Positions 16,278-37,767 of a DNA stretch of 38,833 nt are shown in pieces (the stretch's first letter is position 1; each line of letters starts with the position of its first letter). Source of the stretch: Planctomycetota bacterium. GTDB lineage: Bacteria; Planctomycetota; GCA-002687715; DRQF01. Both the position numbers and the translations under genes were made by a program. The stretch spans positions 1 through 38,833 of the forward strand of contig DRQF01000286.1 of the NCBI GenBank assembly GCA_011369445.1, written 5' to 3'. The notes under the pieces were generated by a model that ran no database searches, was not told the DNA's origin, and saw only the letters and a list, made by a program, of their open reading frames with translations.

Positions 16278-16364
16278 GGAGAGGTGCCGGAGTGGTCGAA
16301 CGGGCCGGTTTCGAAAACCGGTGTCCTCGCAAGGGGACCCAGGGTTCGAATCCCTGCCTCTCCG
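16278..16364 (+). tRNA. tRNA-Ser (anticodon CGA)
   Basis: An 87-nt cloverleaf. The 7-bp acceptor stem GGAGAGG/CCTCTCC closes at 16278-16284 and 16357-16363, with G as discriminator at 16364. The anticodon stem-loop CCGGT-TTCGAAA-ACCGG gives anticodon CGA, reading UCG. A long variable arm (type II tRNA) and the T-arm AGGGTTCGAATCCCT confirm serine identity. CCA is not encoded. Confidence 0.95.
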
Positions 16365-16370
16365 CTCTTA

Positions 16371-16459
16371 GGAGAGATGTCGGAGTGGTCGAACGAGCAC
16401 GCTTGGAAAGCGTGTGACCGTGTCAAAGCGGTCCCTGGGTTCGAATCCCAGTCTCTCCG
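16371..16459 (+). tRNA. tRNA-Ser (anticodon GGA)
   Basis: An 89-nt cloverleaf starting six bases after the previous tRNA. The acceptor stem is GGAGAGA/TCTCTCC with discriminator G at 16459. The anticodon stem-loop CACGC-TTGGAAA-GCGTG gives anticodon GGA, reading UCC and UCU. The long variable arm and T-arm TGGGTTCGAATCCCA fit serine. It is probably transcribed with the first tRNA and ends at the terminator just downstream. Confidence 0.95.
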
Positions 16460-16465
16460 CCATTC

Positions 16466-24455: not shown

Positions 24456-25907
24456 TCAAGGAACCAGATCGAGCTGGTGGGCGTCTGAGAAGGCCAGGAA
24501 TCCGTTCGCGGCGATAGGGGAGATGGCGAGGCTCTGGACCAGCATGCTGACACCCGCGAATCCCGGCGGCACCAGGTAACTGTGGGTGTTGCCGAGAACG
24601 GGAGCGATGGCCGCCTGGAAACCGCCCGGCTGCTCCAAGCCGTTGAAGAGCACGACGGCGGTTCCTTGGAGACTGAACCACATGCCGGGCAGGGGACCGA
24701 AGGGAGGAATCCCCGGGAAGGGGAAAGGTTCCACGATGATGACGGGAGGCTCGCCGTCGAAGGTGCCCCCCGGCGACACGTATTGGACGTAGAAGTAATC
24801 TCCCGCCGACGCCGTCTTGATCTCGTTGCCGGGACCGGATGTGGGAAGACCGTTCACCCCCGTCGACATGACGAAGTCTTCGCCGCTTCCCGGATAGAGC
24901 GCCGCGTTCACCGTCGTGCTGGGAACCGTCAAGTCGGCGAAGACGGCGAAATGGTCGGAGGATTGGGCACTGGCGGTAGGGGAGAGCGGAGCGCCCACCT
25001 TTGGCAGCCAGTTTCCGATGGGCGTGTCGTCGATGCCGTTGTCGCGCATCGAATTGTAGACCTCGTCGCCACTCAGCAGGGCCCCGTTGGCGTAGATCAC
25101 GTAGTCCAACCGGCGGCCGGACGATGGGCGCGTGGCGTAAAGGGTCGTGCTGTCTTCCTGGGTGGCGTCCGCGATGAGGGCGCCCATGGCGAGAAGGGCG
25201 TTGAAGGGGTCATAGACCACGGGGAAAGTGATGTCGGAGCCGAGGGAATACGTCTGAGGCAGTCCCCCCGGAATTGCGTTGAACGTCTGGCCGAAGGGGC
25301 CGTCGCCCAGGTCTTCATTGAGGTCGCCCATCACGAGCCAACTGCCCATGGGATATTGGGCCTGGTAGGCGGAGATGGCCTGGCTGAGTCGGTGAAATTC
25401 GATGGCGCGGCGGAATTTGTTCTCGCTGAACGAACCCGCTTTCAGATGCAGGATGAAGAGGGCCGTTCGCTCGGCGGCATTGGGCACCTGGACATGGACC
25501 TCGAAGATGTCGCGGGTGATGTCGTTGGCGTTGGGGTCGCCCGAGAGCTGGGCCGCGCTGTGGGAGGCGGAAAAGAGAATGGGGTAGTTCGACAGGACGG
25601 CGCCGCGGAAATCCCCCGAAAGCGTCCCCGAGACCGACGACACCGCCCAGTTGGAGTAGCCCGTCGCTCCCGCCAGCGTGGGGACGAGGGCCGCCTCGGC
25701 GGCGGTGTCGATCTCCTGGAGGGCCACCACGTCGGCGCCGATCCGATTGAGGATGTTCACCGTCTGATTCCACTCGTTGCTCCCCTGGTTTCCCAGCGAC
25801 TGGGTGTTCCAGGTGGCGACGCGCAGGGCCTCCTGGGCCGGGGACGGCGTGCCCCACAGGATCACGGCGAGGACGAGGAGCAGGATGGACGGCTTGCCCT
25901 GGGACAT
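24456..25907 (-). CDS. Secreted endonuclease/exonuclease/phosphatase-fold protein with shared C-terminal domain
   Basis: The protein has 483 residues. ATG 25907 has GGAGAG about 9 bases upstream; the in-frame ATG at 25922 lacks one. A Sec signal peptide ends near PSPAQ. Residues about 27-320 form an EEP fold (DNase I-like): ATWNTQS, the metal-binding Glu in ALQEIDT, GDLNED, and the terminal SSDHFAV are all present, so hydrolysis of nucleic acid or another phosphodiester outside the cytoplasm is plausible. Residues about 335-483 form a separate domain starting near SGEDFVMSTGVNGLP and ending AANGFLAFSDAHQL. It matches the C-terminus of the beta-helix protein at 32126 in order and key residues. 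It may serve in surface attachment or export. Confidence 0.85.
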   Translation of the reverse strand: MSQGKPSILLLVLAVILWGTPSPAQEALRVATWNTQSLGNQGSNEWNQTVNILNRIGADVVALQEIDTAAEAALVPTLAGATGYSNWAVSSVSGTLSGDFRGAVLSNYPILFSASHSAAQLSGDPNANDITRDIFEVHVQVPNAAERTALFILHLKAGSFSENKFRRAIEFHRLSQAISAYQAQYPMGSWLVMGDLNEDLGDGPFGQTFNAIPGGLPQTYSLGSDITFPVVYDPFNALLAMGALIADATQEDSTTLYATRPSSGRRLDYVIYANGALLSGDEVYNSMRDNGIDDTPIGNWLPKVGAPLSPTASAQSSDHFAVFADLTVPSTTVNAALYPGSGEDFVMSTGVNGLPTSGPGNEIKTASAGDYFYVQYVSPGGTFDGEPPVIIVEPFPFPGIPPFGPLPGMWFSLQGTAVVLFNGLEQPGGFQAAIAPVLGNTHSYLVPPGFAGVSMLVQSLAISPIAANGFLAFSDAHQLDLVP

Positions 25908-26053
25908 GACGGGACTCTCCATGGATGATTCGGCGTCCCCATTCTACCGATTCCCGCCGGAGGGGCCCAAACATGGGATTTCGCGAAGAGAGGGAACGGG
26001 TGCCGACTTCCGTTTGGACGGGACACATCGTGTGAGAGGGGGTCGGTTCTCAG

Positions 26054-26138
26054 TGCCGGAGGAGGGACTCGAACCCTCACTCCCATTACAGGAAACGGAT
26101 TTTGAATCCGTCGCGTCTGCCAATTCCGCCACTCCGGC
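26054..26138 (-). tRNA. tRNA-Leu (anticodon CAA)
   Basis: An 85-nt cloverleaf on the minus strand. The acceptor stem GCCGGAG/CTCCGGC closes at 26138-26132 and 26061-26055, with discriminator A at 26054. The anticodon stem-loop ACGGA-TTCAAAA-TCCGT gives anticodon CAA, reading UUG. The long variable arm, D-arm GGCGGAATTGGCAGACGC and T-arm AGGGTTCGAGTCCCT fit leucine. CCA is not encoded. Confidence 0.95.
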
Positions 26139-26176: not shown

Positions 26177-26313
26177 TGGATGGGGGAGGAGGAGATCCCG
26201 GAAAATAATGGGCCCGGCCGAAAGAATGATGCTGCCGGGCGAGTCTTGTCGTGGAGAAGGCTCGCGAGGGGCTACAATGTCATGGACCGAGGTCCTCAGC
26301 CCGGATTGAGTGC

Positions 26314-28356
26314 ATGTTCCGACAGATTCTGAAACTGAAGCAGGCCCGCAAGGCATTCAAGGAAGGACGCTTCCAGGAGGCCCTCTCCCTCGCGGACGAT
26401 CCCGAGGTCAAGGACCATCTTCAGGCGAAGAAGCTGCGAGACCGGGCACTTCGAGCTCTCGCCGGCCAGGTGGACCGTCACGAGCGGGAAGGAGATCTCT
26501 CCCTGGCCGTGGCCGAGATCGAGAAGCTGCGCCGATGGACGGATGACGATGCCGTTCGTCTCCACGAGCGGCGCTTGCGCAAACAGAAGCGGGATCGCGA
26601 GGACGACGCCGGACGAATGAGGCAGAAATACTACAAGGCCCGCTTGCTCATCGACCGCGGCGACATGGACGGGGCGCGTGCCCTTCTGTCCGCGATCTCC
26701 CCCATTGAGCGGACGCCCGAAATCAAAGAGTTGCTCGTCGAGATCGAGCAGCGGGCGAAGGACGCTCTCCGTTGGATTGGTGACGCGCGTTCGATTCTGT
26801 CCGCCGATCCGGTGCAGGCCGAGGAGCTGGCCCGCAAGGCTGAGTCCCTCCATCCGCAGGCGCCCGAACTGGCCGAGTTCTACCGTGACCTCGCTCGCGC
26901 CAAGGTGAAACTCGTGACCGATGGCGATCTTTCCGACGGAGCGCTGGCGGCGTTCCTTTTGGACTGGCGTCTGTTCAAGCGTCGCCACTTCCACAGCGAG
27001 ATGACGGCGGACTTGGTGCGGAGCGAGGCCGACTTGGTGAAACTCCTCTCAAAGCGCGTCCGAGAGCATCTCGCCGCCGGGCGCTACGCCGAGGCCGAAC
27101 GCCTGATCGATCGCCAGAGCGATGTTTTGGCCCGCGATCATGATCTCGAGTCCCTCGGTCGAGGCCTCAAACGGTTGGCGGAAGCGCAGACGGCGTTCGA
27201 ACAGGGCGGCTACGAGGACGCCAAGGCCCGCCTCGAGGAGGCGATGACCCTGCTTCCCCGATCGGGTCACCTCAAGGAGTTGAGCCGTAGTATCGAGCGT
27301 GCGCGCAGGGAGATTCAACCCGCGCTCGAAGAGGCGACGCGCCTTTTGAGAGAGCGCAAGCTCCACGAGGCCAAGGGCCTCATCCTGGGGATTTTGGAAG
27401 GAGCGCCCGGCCACATGAAAGCCGGCCGTCTGCTCGAACGAATCAATGCCCAATGGACGGAGACGCTGAGACACCTGGATGAAGCCCGCCGTCGTGTCGG
27501 CGAGCGGCGCTTGGAGGCGGCTTCGGCGGCCCTACAGCGCTTGGAGGCGCTCGGGTGGGAGGATCCGGAAGTCGACCTTCTGAGGCGAGAGATCGCTCAC
27601 CTCGAACGGACGAAGCCTTCCATCGCGAAACCCCGCCATGAGCTTGCCGGGGACGGGGGAAAGAAGGGGCCCGCGGCCTTCGGTGGAGCCGCCCCCCGAG
27701 CCGTGGCCCACGGAGGTGCCATGGGCCCGCTGTGGGTTCTCGGGGTGGAAGAACACGGCGAGATCCTCGTCGTGGAGAAATCCGAGGTCCTGTTCGGCAG
27801 CGCGGCACGGGGCGTCGCCGATCTCATGTTCATGGCCCCGCTCGCGGCCCGGCATGCCGTTCTACGTCGTCGCCGGAGTTTCCACGGTGGGGATGCCTAT
27901 GTCCTCGAATCCGTGGAGGGCCGCCCCGTGCGGGTCAACGGAGAAGACGTCACGTCCGCGACCTTGAAGGATGGGGATCGGGTGGCACTTGGAACGAAAG
28001 TGCATTTCCGATTCCACTACCCCTCGGAGGTGTCCAGGGCCCCGGTGCTGCAATTCGAAGAAGGCGAGCTGGTCCAGGGGCTCACCCAGGCCGTTCTCCT
28101 GCCGCCCACCGGTCGGGCAGGCGCGATCCGCGTCGGAAACCTGGTTGACGCCCACATCGCAACATCCGACTCCTCCGGAAGTTGTGAAGTTTATCGGGAA
28201 ACGGCCGCGGAGGGCGGTCAACTCGTGGTTCAGGGGGCCAGCGGCGTCGCCGTCGACGGTGATGCGCCCCGGAGCCGTGCTTTTTGTCGTGACGGCAGCA
28301 CGGTGCGAGCCGACGATCTGACTTTGGTGTTTCGCTCGATCGCTCCATCCGATTGA
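26314..28356 (+). CDS. Helical-repeat protein with C-terminal FHA-like domains
   Basis: The protein has 680 residues from ATG 26314; upstream in-frame starts lack a ribosome site. Residues 1-450 are almost all helix, with repeated ARxLLxxGxYxxAxxLL-like motifs (for example EHLAAGRYAEAERLI and AQTAFEQGGYEDAKARLEEA), as in TPR-like scaffolds. A Gly/Ala/Lys linker (about 450-468) leads to an FHA-like fold (about 470-575) with AARHAVLRR, VNGEDV and LKDGDRVALG in the right order. A second, weaker copy (about 590-678) has AIRVG, VAVDGD and FCRDGSTVRADDLTLVF. The Arg and Ser that read phosphothreonine are replaced in the first copy (FGS for GR, AARH for SxxH). First gene of the five-gene kinase/sigma operon, so it is a likely scaffold for it. 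No membrane segment. Confidence 0.75.
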   Translation: MFRQILKLKQARKAFKEGRFQEALSLADDPEVKDHLQAKKLRDRALRALAGQVDRHEREGDLSLAVAEIEKLRRWTDDDAVRLHERRLRKQKRDREDDAGRMRQKYYKARLLIDRGDMDGARALLSAISPIERTPEIKELLVEIEQRAKDALRWIGDARSILSADPVQAEELARKAESLHPQAPELAEFYRDLARAKVKLVTDGDLSDGALAAFLLDWRLFKRRHFHSEMTADLVRSEADLVKLLSKRVREHLAAGRYAEAERLIDRQSDVLARDHDLESLGRGLKRLAEAQTAFEQGGYEDAKARLEEAMTLLPRSGHLKELSRSIERARREIQPALEEATRLLRERKLHEAKGLILGILEGAPGHMKAGRLLERINAQWTETLRHLDEARRRVGERRLEAASAALQRLEALGWEDPEVDLLRREIAHLERTKPSIAKPRHELAGDGGKKGPAAFGGAAPRAVAHGGAMGPLWVLGVEEHGEILVVEKSEVLFGSAARGVADLMFMAPLAARHAVLRRRRSFHGGDAYVLESVEGRPVRVNGEDVTSATLKDGDRVALGTKVHFRFHYPSEVSRAPVLQFEEGELVQGLTQAVLLPPTGRAGAIRVGNLVDAHIATSDSSGSCEVYRETAAEGGQLVVQGASGVAVDGDAPRSRAFCRDGSTVRADDLTLVFRSIAPSD

Positions 28357-28413
28357 GCGGGAATATTCCGCCCGCGGTCAGAATGATGAGTGTTCTGGAA
28401 ACCGGAGGTTTTC

Positions 28414-29577
28414 ATGGTCCGAGGTCTTTCGAGATTCGCCGCGCTCATTGTCTCACTCATCGCGCTGTTCGTGGTGCTGGGTGCCTGGTCGCTGACCGTT
28501 CGATCTCGCAGAGCCCGTGCCCAGTTCGTGCGCGAAGTCGCCGTCGAGCGGAGAGACGCCGCGGAGCGTCGCTTCGAGGCTTCTGTCAGGGCGAGCGGGC
28601 ACGGGGTGAGCGTGACCGTGGATTCCGTGGAGCCGGAAGCTCTCCAATACGGGCCCGAGGGCGTCGAGGTGCGATCCACGCTTTCCGACGCCATCGACGC
28701 CATCGCCGATTCCGTGGAACGCATGACCCAAAACGGCCGTCTGCGGGGCCGTCGCATCCGAGAAGTCGGCGTCATCGAGGCGCATCGCCGGGACGACGCG
28801 CCGGACATCCGTTCCGCGCGCCTTCGACTGGTCAAGGTCCTTCGGATGCGAGGTGTGAACGCCCGTGACGGGGAGGCCCGCAGATTCGGGGGGATGACCC
28901 TCGAAATCTCTCTCCGCAAGGAAGGTGAGGAGGCCGAACTCCTGGGCGTCTACGAGCGCGAGGGCGGCTTCATGCGAGAGATCCTGATCGAGGGTGCGAG
29001 CGCTGGCGATGTCGCGGACGCGCAACTGGATTTCGAGATGCGGAAGCTGCCGCGCTCCGACCGCTCCACTTTGAGATTCAAGACCGGAGTGACGTTGAGC
29101 CCCGACGATGCCCGCGAGGACGCGCTGGATCTGTTGGCGCGCCGCATTCGCAAGGAATTGTGGAGCATGGCTCTCGTCTCCACGGGGATCGACGAAACCG
29201 ACGCCTCGGAGTTCGAGCGTCGCCTCTGGGACCGCTACTCCAGGGATTTTCTCGTGGGGCTCGGCGCTCTGCAGACGCGCCCGGAGACTCTGGAGGTCGA
29301 CGGAGACACCTTTCACCGGGTCGAGGTCCGTTGGGTGGCGAGTCGACGCGACCTCCAGGACCTGGCCAAGGGCGTGGCGCTCTCCATGCTGGCCGAGCGC
29401 CGCGAACCCTGGCTGAAGCTCGGTTTCAGTCTCGGATTCGCCGTCCTCGCGTTGCTGCTTTGGCTGAAGGTGGATTGGCTCCTGAAGGGGCATTTCGCCG
29501 TCCTTTCGAAACTTGGCTTTGTTATACTGGTTGTCATGGGTGTCGGCCTCATTTGGAGCTTGAACATCCATGTCTGA
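28414..29577 (+). CDS. Integral membrane protein of kinase operon, unknown family
   Basis: The protein has 387 residues. ATG 28414 is preceded by GGAGGTTTTC, a strong site that decides against the in-frame start at 28390. One N-terminal membrane helix (ALIVSLIALFVVLGAWSL) is followed by about 290 mostly soluble, charged residues, then two C-terminal helices (FSLGFAVLALLLWLKVDWLL and LGFVILVVMGVGLIWSL). The central region would sit on one side of the membrane, probably periplasmic, where it could act as a sensor. It carries no recognised domain, though its mixed strand/helix order around 45-200 suggests a compact fold. Its end overlaps the kinase start by 8 bp, which implies coupled synthesis. 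A sensor or adaptor for the kinase is an inference from position only. Confidence 0.7.
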   Translation: MVRGLSRFAALIVSLIALFVVLGAWSLTVRSRRARAQFVREVAVERRDAAERRFEASVRASGHGVSVTVDSVEPEALQYGPEGVEVRSTLSDAIDAIADSVERMTQNGRLRGRRIREVGVIEAHRRDDAPDIRSARLRLVKVLRMRGVNARDGEARRFGGMTLEISLRKEGEEAELLGVYEREGGFMREILIEGASAGDVADAQLDFEMRKLPRSDRSTLRFKTGVTLSPDDAREDALDLLARRIRKELWSMALVSTGIDETDASEFERRLWDRYSRDFLVGLGALQTRPETLEVDGDTFHRVEVRWVASRRDLQDLAKGVALSMLAERREPWLKLGFSLGFAVLALLLWLKVDWLLKGHFAVLSKLGFVILVVMGVGLIWSLNIHV

Positions 29578-31018
29578 CTTGGCCCCCGAGAAGACTCCCC
29601 CCGTCGATGCGAGGGGATCAGAGAATCGGAATCCGAAACGGGATGAGAGGTGGACCATGGACTGGGAAGGTTTCTTTACCTCCTACAGAAAACCAGGCTT
29701 CATCCCCGGGTTCGAGATCGTCAACAAGCTGGGCAGCGGCGTTTTTGGCGAGGTCTACAAGGCCCGCAAGGAGTCCATCGGCAAGTTCTACGCCATCAAG
29801 TTCCTGAAGGTGACCGACGAGCGCGTCAGCGAGGCCATCTTCAAGGAGTTGGACTCCCTCAAGTTCTTCGCCCAGATCGATCACCCCAACCTCGTGAGCA
29901 TCGAGGACAAGGGGGAGGTGATGGGCATCCCCTACATCATCATGGGGTATGCCGGCGATGAGACCTTGAAGAAGCGGCTGGCCCAAGGAGCTCTTCCCGA
30001 ATCGGAAGCGAACGAGATCTTCCGGCAGATCTGTTCCGGGGTCGCCGCACTTCACGAGAAGTCGATCATTCACTTCGATCTGAAGCCGGCCAACATCTTC
30101 ATGAAGGGGCACCACGCTCGTGTTGGCGACTATGGGCTCTCAAAACTCGTGAGTGAGTCCCACATGACCATGTCGATCGGGCGGGGGACGCCCTACTACA
30201 TGGCGCCTGAGATGTTGACGCGCAAGGGGGATCATCGCAGCGACATCTACTCCCTGGGTGTCATTCTCTACGAGATGCTGACGGGAAGAGTCCCGTTCAC
30301 TGGCGATAGCGAATGGGAGGTTCTCCGCAAGCACGAGAACGAGAAACTCGAGATTCCCGACGTGGTCAAACCGCCCTATCGCGGCATCATTCAGCGCTGC
30401 ATGAGGAAGAAGCCCGAGGATCGGTTCCAGAGCGTGAACGAGATCCTGGCGCTTCTCGAGGGGCGCCCGATGACGGCGTCGACACCGCTGGTGGAGTCAC
30501 CGAAGCGAGGTTGCGCGCCCCCTCCGTTGCCCCGAAAGCCTGGGAAGTGCGGCCCGTTCCGGAAACGGACCCGGGTTGAGAAACGACTCGGCGGCGAACT
30601 CGGCCGGCTGGCGGAATTCGCCCGACGCAATCCCAAGTCGGAGGAGTACCGGGCAGAGTTTGCCGCGGCCCGCGCGGCGAAGGTCCTCTCGCCAGCCAAT
30701 CAGGATTCGGTCTATATCGATTTCGAAGACGCCGCGGACACACCGACGGCGGCTTCCGATGAGCAGACTGCGGTCGCCGAGAAGCCGTCACGCCCCCCAC
30801 GGCGCCGTCGGTCGTTGATCGGATGGCTTTTCCGCCCCGTGACCGCCCTCCTCGGCGGGGTCATCGCCTTGCTCAGGGGCATCGTGCGCGGGTTGGGAGT
30901 TTTCTTCGCGAACTTCCTGCGATACGCTCTCGTCATCGGAATCACTCTGGCTTTGGCGTTTCTGATTCACGCCGCGCTGCGAGGATTCGACGGAGAACTC
31001 ATTTTCGCAGGTTGGTAA
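29570..31018 (+). CDS. Membrane-anchored Ser/Thr protein kinase
   Basis: The protein has 482 residues from ATG 29570. The eukaryote-like kinase domain spans about 47-315: glycine loop GSGVFGEV, Lys77 in YAIK, Glu93 on the C-helix, HFDLKPAN (168-175) with catalytic Asp170, DYG (187-189) in place of DFG, and MAPE (211-214). The Arg usually before the catalytic Asp is Phe (a non-RD kinase), so activation-loop phosphorylation may matter less. After a Pro/Arg-rich linker, residues about 415-475 hold hydrophobic helices, ending in YALVIGITLALAFLIHAAL, which anchor the kinase with only a short tail outside. Neighbours are FHA-like, membrane, sigma and zinc-finger proteins, so the kinase probably controls the adjacent sigma factor. 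No PASTA or other sensor domain is present. Confidence 0.92.
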   Translation: MSDLAPEKTPPVDARGSENRNPKRDERWTMDWEGFFTSYRKPGFIPGFEIVNKLGSGVFGEVYKARKESIGKFYAIKFLKVTDERVSEAIFKELDSLKFFAQIDHPNLVSIEDKGEVMGIPYIIMGYAGDETLKKRLAQGALPESEANEIFRQICSGVAALHEKSIIHFDLKPANIFMKGHHARVGDYGLSKLVSESHMTMSIGRGTPYYMAPEMLTRKGDHRSDIYSLGVILYEMLTGRVPFTGDSEWEVLRKHENEKLEIPDVVKPPYRGIIQRCMRKKPEDRFQSVNEILALLEGRPMTASTPLVESPKRGCAPPPLPRKPGKCGPFRKRTRVEKRLGGELGRLAEFARRNPKSEEYRAEFAAARAAKVLSPANQDSVYIDFEDAADTPTAASDEQTAVAEKPSRPPRRRRSLIGWLFRPVTALLGGVIALLRGIVRGLGVFFANFLRYALVIGITLALAFLIHAALRGFDGELIFAGW

Positions 31019-31024
31019 CCCCCT

Positions 31025-31663
31025 TTGCCAAGAGAACGCTTCGACTACGACATCGCGAAACTCCAGGCCATGGATGCCGAGGAGTGGGAGGCGTTGCAAC
31101 GCAACTACTACCAGCGCATCTTCTATTACGTGAAGCGCCAGGTCACCGATGCCGACACGGCCGAGGACATCACGTCCGAGACGTTCTTGGGCGCCCTCAA
31201 GGGGATCGGCCGTTTCGACGAGCGCTACAACATCGAGCAGTTCCTCTTCGGGATCGCCCGCAAGAAGACGATCGATTGGATGCGAAAGTCCGGGCACGAG
31301 CGACAGATTTCCGGTAAGGACGACGACTCCTCGAGCTTCTTCGGGAACGTCCCCGCCGAGGAGATGTCGCCGGCTCAGCTTGCCGTCGTGCGCGAAAAGG
31401 TCATGAGGCAGCGCGACGCTCTCGTCGAAATCCTGAGGGACTACGTGGGTGACCTGTGGGAGTCTCGAGATTTCCGCCGCCTGAAGACGATCGAACTGAT
31501 TTTCCTGCGTCGGTGGCGTCATCGCCCGATTGCCGATCTGCTGGGCTACCAGGACGAGAAGGCCATCGCGGGTGTGAAGTTTCGCGCCATTCGCGACTGG
31601 CAGGACCGCCTTCGCAGGCGAGACCCCAACAAGACTCTATTTTCCAAGCTCTGGGAGTCCTGA
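31025..31663 (+). CDS. ECF-like sigma factor
   Basis: The protein has 212 residues from TTG 31025, six bases after the kinase stop; ATG 31070 is a shorter alternative that would trim 15 residues. Region 2 (about 20-90) is clear: YYQRIFYYVKRQ, the acidic DTAEDITSETFLGAL of region 2.2, and FLFGIARKKTIDWMRK of 2.3-2.4. A linker with many Asp and Ser residues (about 95-120) separates it from a region 4-like helix-turn-helix (about 150-200; RPIADLLGYQDEKAIAGVKF), which is more divergent. Sigma factors of this size recruit RNA polymerase to regulon promoters. ECF groups genetically linked to Ser/Thr kinases are known from Planctomycetota and other phyla, and phosphorylation of region 2 activates one such factor in Vibrio. 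The zinc-finger gene follows 2 bp later. Confidence 0.88.
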   Translation: MPRERFDYDIAKLQAMDAEEWEALQRNYYQRIFYYVKRQVTDADTAEDITSETFLGALKGIGRFDERYNIEQFLFGIARKKTIDWMRKSGHERQISGKDDDSSSFFGNVPAEEMSPAQLAVVREKVMRQRDALVEILRDYVGDLWESRDFRRLKTIELIFLRRWRHRPIADLLGYQDEKAIAGVKFRAIRDWQDRLRRRDPNKTLFSKLWES

Positions 31664-31665
31664 GA

Positions 31666-32073
31666 ATGCCGTGCCCCCCCGTCCAGCAGATCGTGGAAGC
31701 CGTGGAGCGCGACGAACTCCCTGAGTCGCTGCAGGACCACATCCGTGCCTGTCAGGCCTGTGCCGACGTGCTGACGGCGCTGCGAGACGAGTCGGACGGT
31801 CTCACCATCTGCGTGGGCTCTCTTTGGGTCAAGGAACGGATCACCTGTCCGCACCCGGACATCCTCCTCGGGTTCGTCAACGACGGCTTGGATCCAGACG
31901 AAAAGGATTACATCGCTTTTCACCTGGACACCATCGAATGCCCTCATTGCCAAGCCGAGGTGCAGCGGTTGGAGGACTTGGTGGCTCGCGGCGACGAGCG
32001 TCGCGTCGAGCGGGCCATGGACGACGCCATGCGTCGGAGCGCCGTTTTGTTGGACGAACTCCGCAAGCGGTAG
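31666..32073 (+). CDS. Double zinc-finger (ZAS-like) putative anti-sigma protein
   Basis: The protein has 135 residues. ATG 31666 lies 2 bp after the sigma stop with GGGAG upstream; the longer frame to 31456 is a shadow of the sigma gene. Two copies of an anti-sigma-type zinc module are visible: Cys3...His25-x3-Cys29-x2-Cys32 (HIRACQAC), and Cys61...His86-x5-Cys92-x2-Cys95 (HLDTIECPHC). There is no membrane helix, so unlike classical membrane anti-sigmas it is soluble. The C-terminal third is a charged helix. It probably binds the sigma factor; whether as inhibitor, co-regulator or redox switch is not readable. A stem-loop after the stop (32084) probably ends the operon. Confidence 0.75.
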   Translation: MPCPPVQQIVEAVERDELPESLQDHIRACQACADVLTALRDESDGLTICVGSLWVKERITCPHPDILLGFVNDGLDPDEKDYIAFHLDTIECPHCQAEVQRLEDLVARGDERRVERAMDDAMRRSAVLLDELRKR

Positions 32074-32125: not shown

Positions 32126-33775
32126 TCAGAGTGTGATGATGTCGTGGGCCCGCGTGGATGCGTAGATGTGGTTGGCCGCCATCGCCGACAGGACGACCGC
32201 CTGAATTCGGGCGGTGATGCCGGGCGGAAGAGGGAGCGCATTGGTGCTGAATGAATCGCCTGCCGCAGGCAGCATCCCCGTGACACTGATCAAGGCCGCG
32301 CCGAAGGCATTCACCTGAAGGCTCTGGTAGGCGAGCGGCGAATAGAGGGGGCCCTGGGCGGGGTCGTAGATCTGAGCCAGGAGCACCACGTTGCCTCCGA
32401 CGAAGGTGCCGCCGGGAGACGCCCATCCCACGCTCAGTAGGTCACCGGGGGCGGCATGCTTCACGCAGAGCATGGGGTCGCCAAGACCGTTGATGGTGGA
32501 GGTCATGATGAAGTCCTCCATCGTCCCATCCAGGCAGACCTCATCCGCGCCCATGTCGGGAATGACGTTGACGATTCGTGGGTCCGCGTCCACGTCGAGG
32601 TCGAGGAGCCCCGTGAACGACGGGTCGGCCGCATCACGGCACGGCGAATCCGCTTGAAGGTGGTAGTCTCCGTTGGCCGGGTCAACGAAAAGCGCCGGTG
32701 CATCGATGTTGCCCGCATTGGGGATACCTCCCAATCCGATGGCATTCGAGGCCGCCACGGCCCCGGGGCCGGCGAATTCCACCGCGTAGGCCGGGTTTCT
32801 GAGGATGCTATTGCGCACCTCCATCGGTCCTTCGAAGGTGCTGCCTCCCATGCCAACGGGCATGTTGTCGGCCACGGTCGCGTGCAGCACGAGGAAACTT
32901 CCCGTGAAGCCCATTCCCGTCCGGCGCACGGTCGGGCTGATGTCCATGACGCCCAGACCGCCTTGATTGCCCGCGAGGATGCAGTTGACGATGCCGCCGA
33001 GAGCCGTGGAATCGATGCGGAGCACCCCGGGCCCGCCTTCTGCCGTCGTTCCGGCTCCGCCCGTGTTCCCGTGGAATTCGTCGTTGGCGAGGACCATCGT
33101 CCCGCCCACGGATTCGACCGCGCCGGCGCCGCCCACGGTGCCCACGCCTCCCGTGTTGTTCTCGACCCGGGTGCGAATCATGTCAGGCATCCCTCCGACG
33201 GAAAGCACGGCACCGGGACCGCCCGGTCCCCCGACGCCCAGACCGCCCATGTTGTTACGAAGGATACAGTCCTCCAGGAGGGGGAAGGCATTCGCATGCA
33301 TGGAAATGGCTCCCGCTCCGCCGATGGCTCCTCCGGTGCCTAGGCCTCCCGAATTGGCTTCGATGATGCAGTTGCGAAGGGTGGGGGCGGAAGCGACGCA
33401 GAGGACGCCTCCCGGAGCCCCCTCCGCCACGCCGGGCACGTTTGTGATGCCCAGCCCGCCTCTCAGCGTGAAGCCCTCGAGGTGGGTGGCCCGGGGCTCA
33501 CCCCCGACGAACCGGACGACGGTGCCGAGGCCCGCCGCGTCGATGATCGTGACCTGGGGGCCCCCGAAAGAGACCACCTCGATGGTCTTGCCCAGAAAAT
33601 CCAGGGTTTCGAGGTAGGTGCCCGGGGCGACTTGAATCACGTCCCCGTTGTTGGCGGCCACGATGGCGCTTTGAATCGTGGGGAATGCCCCCGGGACCTG
33701 GAGACCGGTCTGTCCAAAAGCGGTTGACAGGGTGAGGGTTAGGACGGCGACAGTCATGGCTGTTCTTGTGAGCAT
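32126..33775 (-). CDS. Secreted glycine-rich beta-helix protein
   Basis: The protein has 549 residues. ATG 33775 has GGAGAAAC just upstream and opens a Sec signal peptide ending near STAFG. The start of the mature part (VPGAFPTIQSAIVAANNGDV, then VAPGTY) is the classic lead of right-handed parallel beta-helix (pectate-lyase-like) proteins. Residues about 80-360 hold irregular coils full of GG and GPGG turns. AADPSFTGLLDLDVDADPRI and NVIPDMGADE mark the end of the helix, as in many secreted beta-helix proteins. The last 140 residues (from EDFIMTSTINGL to AHDIITL) match the tail of the nuclease-fold protein at 24456. No lyase catalytic set is visible, so a binding or structural surface role is as likely as an enzyme. 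It stands alone, divergent from 33946. Confidence 0.85.
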   Translation of the reverse strand: MLTRTAMTVAVLTLTLSTAFGQTGLQVPGAFPTIQSAIVAANNGDVIQVAPGTYLETLDFLGKTIEVVSFGGPQVTIIDAAGLGTVVRFVGGEPRATHLEGFTLRGGLGITNVPGVAEGAPGGVLCVASAPTLRNCIIEANSGGLGTGGAIGGAGAISMHANAFPLLEDCILRNNMGGLGVGGPGGPGAVLSVGGMPDMIRTRVENNTGGVGTVGGAGAVESVGGTMVLANDEFHGNTGGAGTTAEGGPGVLRIDSTALGGIVNCILAGNQGGLGVMDISPTVRRTGMGFTGSFLVLHATVADNMPVGMGGSTFEGPMEVRNSILRNPAYAVEFAGPGAVAASNAIGLGGIPNAGNIDAPALFVDPANGDYHLQADSPCRDAADPSFTGLLDLDVDADPRIVNVIPDMGADEVCLDGTMEDFIMTSTINGLGDPMLCVKHAAPGDLLSVGWASPGGTFVGGNVVLLAQIYDPAQGPLYSPLAYQSLQVNAFGAALISVTGMLPAAGDSFSTNALPLPPGITARIQAVVLSAMAANHIYASTRAHDIITL

Positions 33776-33945
33776 GAGTTTCTCCGGAGATGTGGCAAGA
33801 AGGCGCCGTGAATCCTCCATGTCGAACCGTCGCGAGTCAAGGATTCTCCAACAAAAAATAGCCGCTCGAATCCCCCGAATGCCTCCTCGTGACCCAAGCC
33901 CCAAGGAACGGCGGGTCGGCCTCGGAATCAGGAGTTCACACGATC

Positions 33946-34794
33946 ATGTTCAAGAAAATCTTCATCACGGGCGGCGTTCTCTTTCTCGCTTCGGTGCTCC
34001 TCTTCGGAACCCAGACGTTCGCCTGGGTGTCCCACGGAGCCTCGTGGGTCAAGCAACAAGTCAAGGACACGGTGCCGGTCGAGTATCAGTTGGACCAGGC
34101 CCGCTCTCTCGTCGAAGACATGGCTCCGGAGATCCGGGAGTGCAAGCGGGTCATTGCCCAAAAGCAGGTCGATCTGAAGTACCTCGATCAGGACATCGCC
34201 CGCCTCGAGCAGAGATATCAGTCCGCGAGGAAGCGCCTGGCCGAGCAGGCCTCCGCCCTCGACGAGCACCGCGAGACCTACGTGTTCCTCGGCCGCCGGA
34301 TCAACCGTGGCGACATGACGCGGGACGCCAAGCGTCGCTTCGAGCGCGTCAAGATGGCGCGCTCGATTCTCGAGAGCAAGTACGCTCGCAGGAAAGCTCT
34401 CTCGGAAGCCTTGGCCTCCGCACGTCAGACGATGGGCGAACTCGTCGAGCAGCAGGCGCATGTTCAGGTCAAGATCGAGGAGTTGGAAGCTCGCTTGCGG
34501 GAGAACGAGGCCAAGAAGGCCGCAACCTTGGACCTCGACATCGACACGAGCCGCTTGGCGAAGGTGAAAGGTATTCTCGCCGACATTCAAAAGCGACTGG
34601 ATGTGGAATCCCAGCTCATCGAGAACGAAAGTCCTCTCATCGGCGAGGAGAGAGACAATCTCGATAGCGCCGACGACTTCGAACTGGGGGACCGCATCTC
34701 TTCATGGCTCAACGGGCCCGACGAGAGCAAGAAAGTCGACCAGCCTGTCCTGCTCCCCGAAGAGGCTCGCATCCCCTTGAATCCAGAGCGCTGA
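33946..34794 (+). CDS. Membrane-anchored coiled-coil protein
   Basis: The protein has 282 residues. ATG 33946 has AGGAG 10 bases upstream. One N-terminal hydrophobic helix (IFITGGVLFLASVLLFGTQ) anchors it or serves as a signal. The remainder is nearly all helical with heptad patterns: about 50-105 (LDQDIARLEQRYQSARKRL), about 140-185 and about 190-225, broken at RRINRGDMTRD. The C-terminal 45 residues are acidic and Pro-rich. The anchor-plus-long-coil layout resembles envelope-stress proteins of the PspA type in a loose sense, but no sequence signature supports that, so I give no function. It is followed by a strong terminator (34865) and stands as a single transcription unit. Confidence 0.7.
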   Translation: MFKKIFITGGVLFLASVLLFGTQTFAWVSHGASWVKQQVKDTVPVEYQLDQARSLVEDMAPEIRECKRVIAQKQVDLKYLDQDIARLEQRYQSARKRLAEQASALDEHRETYVFLGRRINRGDMTRDAKRRFERVKMARSILESKYARRKALSEALASARQTMGELVEQQAHVQVKIEELEARLRENEAKKAATLDLDIDTSRLAKVKGILADIQKRLDVESQLIENESPLIGEERDNLDSADDFELGDRISSWLNGPDESKKVDQPVLLPEEARIPLNPER

Positions 34795-35009: not shown

Positions 35010-35795
35010 GTGAGCGACGAGAAAGCCAAGACCTCAGAGACCCCCGACGTCTTCGAAATCGCCAAGAAGCCGGAGAGCACGAAACCCCCTCAAGTCTCGA
35101 TGAAGGAGTGGCGCAAGGCGCGGTTGGATGCCGGGCACATGGTGATCATCCGGTCGCACTTCAAGTCGATTTTCCTCATTCCCATGGCGATCATTTCGCT
35201 GATCTGCGGGATTGCGGTCACCTTTTCGGGGACCTGGGAGAACACGTGGGGGTTGATCTGGACCTTCTTCTTCGTGTTCTACATGAACATCTTCATCTTC
35301 GAGTGGAATCGAGCGTGGACCCTCGTGATGCTGGCTTTGAGCGTGATGTCGGTGGCGATCGGCTTCGCGGTGGACAGCGAGTCCTTCCCGGTTTGGGAAA
35401 ACCTCTACCACTGGCTGCGCGAACTCCAGCTCAATCACTCCGTCCAGGCCTACTACTTCTATGCCATCTTCTTCGGATTCTGCGCCTTCGTGTCGTTCGT
35501 GAAGACACGCCTGAACTACGCCGTTCTCGAACACAACGAGATGCAGATCTACAAGAATGCGTTCTTCGGAGACCGGGAGAGGATCGCCATGCTCAACCCC
35601 CGCGTGGAGGTCCAGGTCAAGGACATGATCGAGTACTTCCACCCGTTCTATGGTGCGGGCACCGTGGTGGTTCACGCGCCCAGCAAGACCATCGTTCTCG
35701 ACAACGTTCTGCACATTCGAAGGATCGAGCGTCTCGCGGATCGCTTGGGAAGCGTGCTGAACGTTCGCATCGAAGCGCCCCGTCCCACGGAATGA
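35010..35795 (+). CDS. Four-TM membrane protein with cytoplasmic C-terminal domain
   Basis: The protein has 261 residues from GTG 35010, with a purine-rich GAAGAGAGAG stretch upstream. A charged N-terminus of about 50 residues precedes four helices: about 52-72 (FLIPMAIISLICGIAVTF), 79-97 (LIWTFFFVFYMNIFIF), 101-120 (TLVMLALSVMSVAIGFAV) and 146-165 (YYFYAIFFGFCAFVSF). The C-terminal 95 residues are mixed strand and helix (KTRLNYAVLEHNEMQIYKNA, then VVVHAPSKTIVLDNVLHIRR), with the look of a bacterial PH-like domain such as those attached to membrane proteins, but this is a fold guess. It is a separate unit between the terminator at 34865 and the hairpin at 35831. Confidence 0.7.
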   Translation: MSDEKAKTSETPDVFEIAKKPESTKPPQVSMKEWRKARLDAGHMVIIRSHFKSIFLIPMAIISLICGIAVTFSGTWENTWGLIWTFFFVFYMNIFIFEWNRAWTLVMLALSVMSVAIGFAVDSESFPVWENLYHWLRELQLNHSVQAYYFYAIFFGFCAFVSFVKTRLNYAVLEHNEMQIYKNAFFGDRERIAMLNPRVEVQVKDMIEYFHPFYGAGTVVVHAPSKTIVLDNVLHIRRIERLADRLGSVLNVRIEAPRPTE

Positions 35796-37252: not shown

Positions 37253-37767
37253 CGACTCTCTCTCCATTTGGGGGTGCAAAAGCCCTCCGCTGTCAGCTGA
37301 CGCCTGAGTGTCGTCACGGCGTCATGGAGCCTCGAGGCCACCGTGCCGCGAGGTATCTCCAGGACCTGGGCGATCTCGTCGTAGGTGAGACCCATGCGCA
37401 CGCGAAGGATGAAGACCTCGCGAGCGGTCGGGGAGAGACGCTCGATGGCGGCCTCGACACTCGTCGGCTCCGCCGATGTGATGCGCGCCGGGGGCTCTTC
37501 GGTGAAGCGGTGCGGTGCGCGTCGCCTTCGTCCTTTCAAGACGAGTCGGCGTGCCGCGGCAAATAGCCACGCTCTGGGGAATCGGGGTGTGCGACCCTGC
37601 TTGATGGCGCGCAGATAACCCAGCCAGACCTCTTGGAAGATGGCGTCCGGATCCTCGTGGGGCGAGGTCTGTGCGCCGATCCAAGCGTGAAGACGGCCTT
37701 TGCAAGAGGTCCAGGCCGCTTCGAATTCGTCGTCATTCTTCGTCACGGAATCCAAGTACCCGTCCAT
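37249..37767 (-). CDS. ECF-type RNA polymerase sigma factor
   Basis: The protein has 172 residues from ATG 37767; the open frame continues to TTG 37842 without a ribosome site. Region 2 is at about 15-85 with DAIFQEVWLGYLRA (region 2.2) and RAWLFAAARRLVLKGRRRR (2.3-2.4). Region 4 is at about 110-160 with LSPTAREVFILR and the helix-turn-helix YDEIAQVLEIPRGTVASRL. It would direct RNA polymerase to its own regulon and is held by the anti-sigma encoded next. Its gene starts beside an inverted repeat around an A-tract (37777-37798) and is divergent from the exported TPR-like gene at 37854. There is no strong Shine-Dalgarno, so the start could be slightly off. Confidence 0.88.
   Translation of the reverse strand: MDGYLDSVTKNDDEFEAAWTSCKGRLHAWIGAQTSPHEDPDAIFQEVWLGYLRAIKQGRTPRFPRAWLFAAARRLVLKGRRRRAPHRFTEEPPARITSAEPTSVEAAIERLSPTAREVFILRVRMGLTYDEIAQVLEIPRGTVASRLHDAVTTLRRQLTAEGFCTPKWRESR

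Follow-up and report, generated by a model that had tools for sequence, protein, structure and literature searches.

The window analysed here, the 38,833-nucleotide contig DRQF01000286.1 of a Planctomycetota bacterium (assembly GCA_011369445.1; 4.5 Mb in 299 contigs), carries at positions 26314–32073 five consecutive genes, P0001 to P0005. Gene neighbourhoods across the phylum show that these genes belong to one ancient cassette encoding a coiled-coil membrane protein, an FHA-like protein, a Ser/Thr kinase, a membrane protein, an extracytoplasmic function (ECF) sigma factor, and a zinc-finger protein. Within this set, sigma factor and zinc-finger protein are the most firmly linked; judged from their sequences and distribution, they are very probably direct partners. 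We propose, with a probability of about 0.5, that the cassette is an envelope-signalling ECF sigma system in which the membrane protein and the kinase control a sigma/anti-sigma pair. The genes of the run and their features are listed below.

26314–28356, + strand: P0001, TPR-like helical-repeat protein; two FHA-like modules at the C-terminus (TPR_19, FHA profile, internal repeat)
about 27760–28038 and 28045–28353, + strand: FHA-like modules of P0001 (PDB FHA profile match and internal repeat)
28414–29577, + strand: P0002, membrane protein with one N-terminal and two C-terminal helices flanking a region of ~300 amino acids (hydropathy, hhalign)
29570–31018, + strand: P0003, Hanks-type Ser/Thr kinase (Pkinase match, E 5e-52; motifs and anchors)
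29711–30430, + strand: kinase domain of P0003 (motifs IIHFDLKPAN and RVGDYGLS)
about 30815–30937, + strand: C-terminal membrane anchor of P0003 (hydropathy)
31025–31663, + strand: P0004, ECF-type sigma factor with a TTG start (Sigma70_r2, E 2e-12; TIGR02937; family alignment A1)
31666–32073, + strand: P0005, soluble zinc-finger protein (invariant columns in 37 homologues; zf-HC2 and NCBIfam anti-sigma matches in homologues)
31672–31761, + strand: module 1 of P0005, C3-x21-H25-x3-C29-x2-C32
31825–31956, + strand: module 2 of P0005, C61-x24-H86-x5-C92-x2-C95 with W54
32038–32040, + strand: S125 of P0005, near-invariant Ser/Thr of the C-terminal helix

The reading frames reproduce exactly the layout described in a first-pass annotation of this DNA, with gaps of 57, −8, 6, and 2 bp between the genes. 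Hydropathy likewise agrees with its three-helix membrane protein, P0002, and places two C-terminal hydrophobic helices in P0003 and none in P0001, P0004, or P0005. P0002 and P0005 have no above-cut-off Pfam match; no sigma-70-type promoter was found in the region, and terminator-like sites occur there at chance-level frequency.

The planctomycete-type PSD1 family occurs in the genome of the window and in four relatives (71 copies in G057) and is absent from 14 control genomes, which makes Planctomycetota very probably the phylum concerned. A sigma profile built from ten orthologues was run against 392 genomes, all of this phylum, with E below 1e-25 counted as presence. Sigma relatives were found in 80 genomes, of which 35, including the window, constitute clade A (E below 1e-58) and 45 constitute clade B (E about 1e-26 to 1e-38). 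Neighbourhoods were mapped at 52 loci, the relatives' genes being called by a simple script; many of these genomes are incomplete, and contig ends mask some neighbours. The clade-A order is FHA, (membrane protein), kinase, sigma, and zinc finger, after which the coiled coil usually comes; the clade-B order is coiled coil, FHA, kinase, membrane protein, and sigma, with the zinc finger adjoining or elsewhere. The P0001-type FHA gene is conserved ahead of the kinase gene, either next to it or with one gene in between. Because many families of the phylum show this order and it is not unique to this genome, the operon is more than a chance assembly. The first-pass claim that the five genes form one unit holds in the functional sense, supported by an order conserved beyond the genome, by the fusion and near-perfect co-occurrence of sigma factor and zinc finger, and by the kinase gene adjoining the sigma gene; the unit, however, exceeds five genes, since the coiled-coil gene at 33946–34794 belongs to it.

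The zinc-finger profile matches 83 of the 392 genomes, among them 79 of the 80 sigma genomes (Fisher test 8e-77, uncorrected for shared ancestry); neither gene is present in 308. In the four genomes where the profile finds a zinc finger alone, the apparent absence of the sigma factor proved wrong, as a sub-threshold, more divergent sigma is fused to the zinc finger there. G137 and G234, whose divergent fused sigmas could be mapped with enough surrounding context, have the fusion inside the same cassette. Sigma factor and zinc finger form a single reading frame at 16 of the 52 loci, and the maximum-likelihood sigma tree requires at least three changes between the fused and separate states, forced by supported branches; a clean example is G035, which is fused, and its sister G059, which is separate. 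The two genes are unlinked and both retained in 27 clade-B genomes, so that the pair is inherited together even where its genes lie apart. Loss of the zinc finger from family f26, suspected from the neighbourhoods, was likewise wrong, the gene being elsewhere in the genome. The unlinked gene of that family lies near conserved genes of about 290–330 amino acids at loci L120, L121, L123, and L124.

P0004 is an ECF sigma factor by region 2 (Sigma70_r2, 47 bits against a cut-off of 24) and by the overall ECF profile (TIGR02937, 47.3 against 42.9), and it has a conserved C-terminal tail, DPxxxLFxxLW. A scan of genome contigs with P0004 as query returned remote ECFs only. A second ECF region 2 match, weak at 27.5 bits, lies near the window end (37516–37701, − strand). 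Region 2.2 reads TAEDITSE in the window, with the acids E47, D48, and E52; across 52 homologues at least three of the eight positions are acidic in most and never fewer than two, and these three acids are nearly always kept. In ECF43 sigma factors, the region 2.2 acids are replaced by uncharged residues with a phospho-Thr, and the switch repairs the missing charge (PMC8999054, PMC13147305). Because the acids are present here, that switch is inapplicable, and EcfP-type activation of P0004 was rejected.

P0005 is, by the profile matches of its homologues, probably a divergent relative of the class I (ZAS, zf-HC2) anti-sigma factors. A zf-HC2 match is found in 5 of 22 homologues (best 2e-7), and RsrA/ChrR-type anti-sigma models of NCBIfam match 6 of the 22. 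W54, C61, H86, C92, and C95 are invariant in 37 homologues, giving the motif C-x24-H-x5-C-x2-C of module 2. The first-pass annotation had described two ZAS-like modules; both Cys/His modules are present, but only the second is kept throughout the family. The additional N-terminal module, with its classical Hx3Cx2C, is confined to the window and a small number of other members, most of the family having lost it or carrying a degenerate form. Like RsrA, RshA, and ChrR (class I, ASDI/ZAS, zf-HC2), the family consists of small soluble Cys/His proteins paired with an ECF sigma factor, whether adjacent, fused, or in the same genome (79 of 80), and it differs from them in the H-x5-C-x2-C of its conserved module. 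The zinc-finger profile found no meaningful match in the PDB. Single-sequence AlphaFold models reached a mean pLDDT (predicted local distance difference test) of 49 for P0005 and 51 for P0002, too weak for a fold search to be based on them. Position S125, in the C-terminal helix, is Ser or Thr in 34 of 35 sequences. This helix is likely the counterpart, by analogy, of class I helix 4, and because helix 4 contacts sigma2 in known class I anti-sigma factors (PMC7406223), S125 is a plausible candidate phosphosite.

The kinase P0003 keeps the catalytic Lys, the HxD Asp, DxG, and APE, and K77, D170, D187, and E214 are invariant in alignment A5. Wherever the motif is legible in a clade-A kinase it is HFD, not HRD as in clade B; P0003 thus falls outside the RD subtype, which is defined by HRD. 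Since HFD stands for HRD, control by activation-loop phosphorylation is unlikely in clade A. In nearly all clade-A kinases, no more than about 20 residues follow the last hydrophobic helix (26 in the window). With the chain ending just after this helix, the clade-A kinase has no ectodomain, and its having only a C-terminal anchor leaves the membrane protein as the candidate sensor. Of the 35 clade-A sigma genomes, 30 have the clade-A kinase, which is absent from all other genomes sampled. It lies directly 5′ of sigma at every examined clade-A locus with a kinase and sufficient contig; the gap is 6 bp in the window, and the adjacency is conserved.

The FHA-like domains that the first-pass annotation had seen in P0001 are borne out at the level of the fold. 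TPR_19 is matched at the Pfam cut-off (E 2e-5) and FHA below it (E 0.016), and the family profile finds the KIF1B FHA structure (2eh0) at E 1e-6; a second FHA-like module follows the first (hhalign 72%; reversed control 0.2%). The phosphate pocket, by contrast, is not conserved, with Arg kept in 1 of 27 homologues and Ser in 13 of 27, and with Ser496 and Ala511 at these positions in the window. A role of P0001 as a scaffold reading phosphothreonine was rejected as unsupported, the binding Arg being replaced in 26 of the 27. The idea of a phospho-relay fares no better, as none of the products of the operon passes phosphate between proteins. The P0001 family thus resembles mycobacterial GarA and the kinesin FHA in fold by profile and differs from them in the lost Arg.

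P0002 has a single clear homologue, in G002, and had looked like a one-off protein, which is probably wrong. The membrane proteins of the other lineages form one family (hhalign 98%), and comparison of P0002 with its clade-A relatives gives 92% (reversed control 0.3%). Most of this signal comes from the C-terminal helix pair; with the soluble part alone reversed, hhalign still gives 56%, and the soluble part by itself gives no hhalign signal. P0002 can thus probably be counted, as a divergent member, in the membrane-protein family whose gene, in other lineages, stands between those of kinase and sigma factor.

The sixth conserved member of the cassette and the candidate promoter elements lie outside the five-gene run.

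26204–26233, + strand: candidate sigma-dependent promoter element, AATAAT-N13-AGAATG-like, 80 nucleotides 5′ of the first ATG of the operon
33857–33886, + strand: conserved bipartite element AATAGCC-N12-CGAATG, 5′ of the coiled-coil gene
33946–34794, + strand: membrane-anchored coiled-coil protein, recognized from neighbourhoods in clades A and B

In clade B the coiled-coil gene opens the cassette; in clade A it comes after the zinc-finger gene. It was found in 84 of the 392 genomes, 60 of these with sigma, and its profile has no meaningful match in the PDB. Regions upstream of this gene have in common a bipartite element, AATAT(T/C)C-N11/12-CGAAT(A/G), for which the motif obtained by expectation maximization reaches a log-likelihood of 157 versus at most 97 in six base-shuffled sets. 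The element also carries over between clades: a matrix trained on one predicts the sites of the other, with combined p of 5e-5 and 2e-4, although single sites are weak in this test (window p 0.06). Scored with a position weight matrix trained on the coiled-coil upstream regions, the element at 26204–26233 has a single-site p of 0.019. FHA gene starts are enriched for the element (8 of 27 at p < 0.05; binomial 4e-5), and kinase and sigma gene starts show no such enrichment. The bipartite element and the enrichment at FHA starts would fit a sigma-specific promoter and self-regulation, and we consider it rather likely, from these upstream motifs, that the coiled-coil gene is a target of the sigma factor. 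It is not the sole target, because family f32 keeps sigma factor and zinc finger and has the coiled coil in 0 of 18. The window has a convergent beta-helix gene (32126–33904, − strand) between the zinc-finger and coiled-coil genes, whereas in its sister G002 the two are only 172 bp apart with no such gene between, so the beta-helix gene is probably a lineage-specific insertion in the window.

Control by a Ser/Thr kinase and control by a zinc-binding partner of anti-sigma type usually occur separately; the proposed system would join the two. At rest, P0004 would be kept inactive by the ZAS-like P0005, which is soluble here and in other lineages is covalently attached to the sigma factor. A change at the membrane would be sensed by P0002 and the membrane-anchored P0003, aided by the TPR/FHA-like P0001, and P0003 would then phosphorylate the sigma/anti-sigma pair and so loosen it, the near-invariant Ser/Thr at S125 being the candidate site. 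P0004, once freed, would transcribe its own operon and the downstream gene for the coiled-coil membrane protein. Four of these steps, namely the antagonism by P0005, the substrate and site of the kinase, the sensor role of P0002, and the reading of the element by P0004, are ones that we infer. Inhibition of the sigma factor by the zinc finger appears likely from the family relationships; that the kinase acts on the pair is favoured with somewhat less assurance, and action through S125 in particular is doubtful. The nearest functional precedent, by analogy, is mycobacterial PknB and RshA, in which phosphorylation of the ZAS anti-sigma factor weakens its binding to SigH (PMC3427169).

Several observations weigh against this proposal. 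The co-occurrence statistic takes no account of shared ancestry, and five clade-A genomes (G005, G007, G258, G366, and G386) keep sigma factor and zinc finger without a clade-A kinase, from which it follows that the pair is able to work without one; these five have no FHA gene near sigma either. Module 2 has the spacing H-x5-C, unlike the H-x3-C of ZAS, and P0005 itself falls below every curated anti-sigma cut-off, matching only weakly in the window. S125 could be merely a small helix residue, P0002 belongs only probably to the membrane-protein family, and the bipartite element could be read by another sigma factor.

Some of the same observations would suit a zinc finger that is a constitutive accessory subunit of sigma, a stabilizer or an adaptor to RNA polymerase or promoter, with the kinase regulating another step such as the membrane or coiled-coil proteins. 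Repeated fusion and near-perfect co-occurrence are expected of an obligate subunit as much as of an inhibitor, and both the unusual spacing and the retention of the pair in kinase-less genomes agree with it. We nevertheless regard it as unlikely, as anti-sigma models and zf-HC2 are the only profiles that the homologues consistently match, and as the fused ZAS extensions of ECF48, ECF52, and ECF53 are predicted to be built-in anti-sigma factors (PMC8999054). A rather unlikely alternative has the kinase phosphorylating sigma directly as the switch, as in PknT-EcfP and PknS-EcfK, with the zinc finger as a secondary brake. The kinase and sigma genes are adjacent, six ECF groups, four with planctomycete examples, have been proposed to work in this way (PMC8999054), and Ser is common in the sigma linker, with Ser, Thr, Asp, or Glu at tail column T204. 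The retained E47, D48, and E52, however, leave no EcfP-type charge deficit; the only Ser/Thr of sigma conserved across both clades is a linker Ser that is missing from the window, and T204 would fit a helix N-cap equally well. A loose cluster, in which transcription is all that the sigma/zinc-finger pair shares with the kinase, FHA, and membrane proteins and each group has a pathway of its own, would account for the clade-B zinc fingers that often lie elsewhere, for the sigma genes that stand alone in some genomes, and for the five clade-A genomes with neither a kinase nor an FHA gene near sigma. It is very improbable, given that many families of the phylum have this set of genes in rearranged order and that the clade-A kinase never occurs without sigma.

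Among known systems, EcfP/PknT of Vibrio parahaemolyticus and EcfK/PknS of Xanthomonas citri (ECF43) also have an ECF sigma gene adjoining the gene for a membrane-anchored Hanks-type kinase, but they lack the region 2.2 acids and an anti-sigma partner (PMC8999054, PMC13147305), whereas the window family keeps the acids and nearly always has the ZAS-like partner. Kinase-linked ECF groups are already known in Planctomycetes: ECF59, ECF61, ECF62, and ECF217 have sigma next to a Ser/Thr kinase, keep the acidic motif, and are reported usually to have no anti-sigma partner (PMC8999054), a comparison with the window family, above all with clade B, that is by description only. In the actinobacterial ECF48, ECF52, and ECF53, the sigma C-terminus is fused to a zinc-finger anti-sigma domain (PMC8999054); beyond that domain the actinobacterial proteins have transmembrane and extracytoplasmic portions, and they are thought to undergo proteolytic cleavage, whereas in the window family the fused chain stops shortly past the zinc module and is accompanied by a separate kinase. 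The nearly obligate, repeatedly fused ZAS-like partner thus appears, with caution, to be the new element, undescribed in the literature searched, key ECF classification papers excepted.

The surroundings of the operon contain further genes. A 261-amino-acid membrane protein follows the coiled-coil gene:

35010–35795, + strand: membrane protein gene with homologues in the same place at L042, L043, and L044

It is kept as a neighbour only inside the taxonomic order of the window. In five genomes of that taxonomic order (loci L042, L043, L044, L046, and L047), though not in the window, the conserved genes are followed by one for an arginine decarboxylase. A tRNA-Leu(caa) gene lies just 5′ of the operon (26053–26138, − strand), and two tRNA-Ser genes lie at 16278–16462. 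The secreted-type proteins flanking the operon (24456–25922 and 32126–33904, both − strand) have in common a C-terminal domain of ~140 amino acids (30% identity, E 6e-12), possibly for sorting or anchoring.

The EcfP/EcfK mechanism, the one that has been studied, needs the acidic motif to be missing, and as this motif is present in the groups other than ECF43, it would not account for the action of their kinases (PMC8999054). The ZAS-like partner is a candidate for the missing element in kinase-linked ECF control. A more specific version of our proposal, which we hold tentatively, is that the kinase switches a zinc-binding anti-sigma domain that is tethered to sigma in several lineages, the pseudo-FHA protein serving as a phosphorylation-independent adaptor; with the domain tethered, activation would proceed by reversible conformational release and not by sequestration or proteolysis. 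The fused, adjacent, unlinked, and kinase-less versions are natural experiments, and the family offers a specific, testable kinase substrate and a predicted target gene. If the more specific version is true, the tethered anti-sigma switch would represent an ECF control mode in its own right, old within Planctomycetota.

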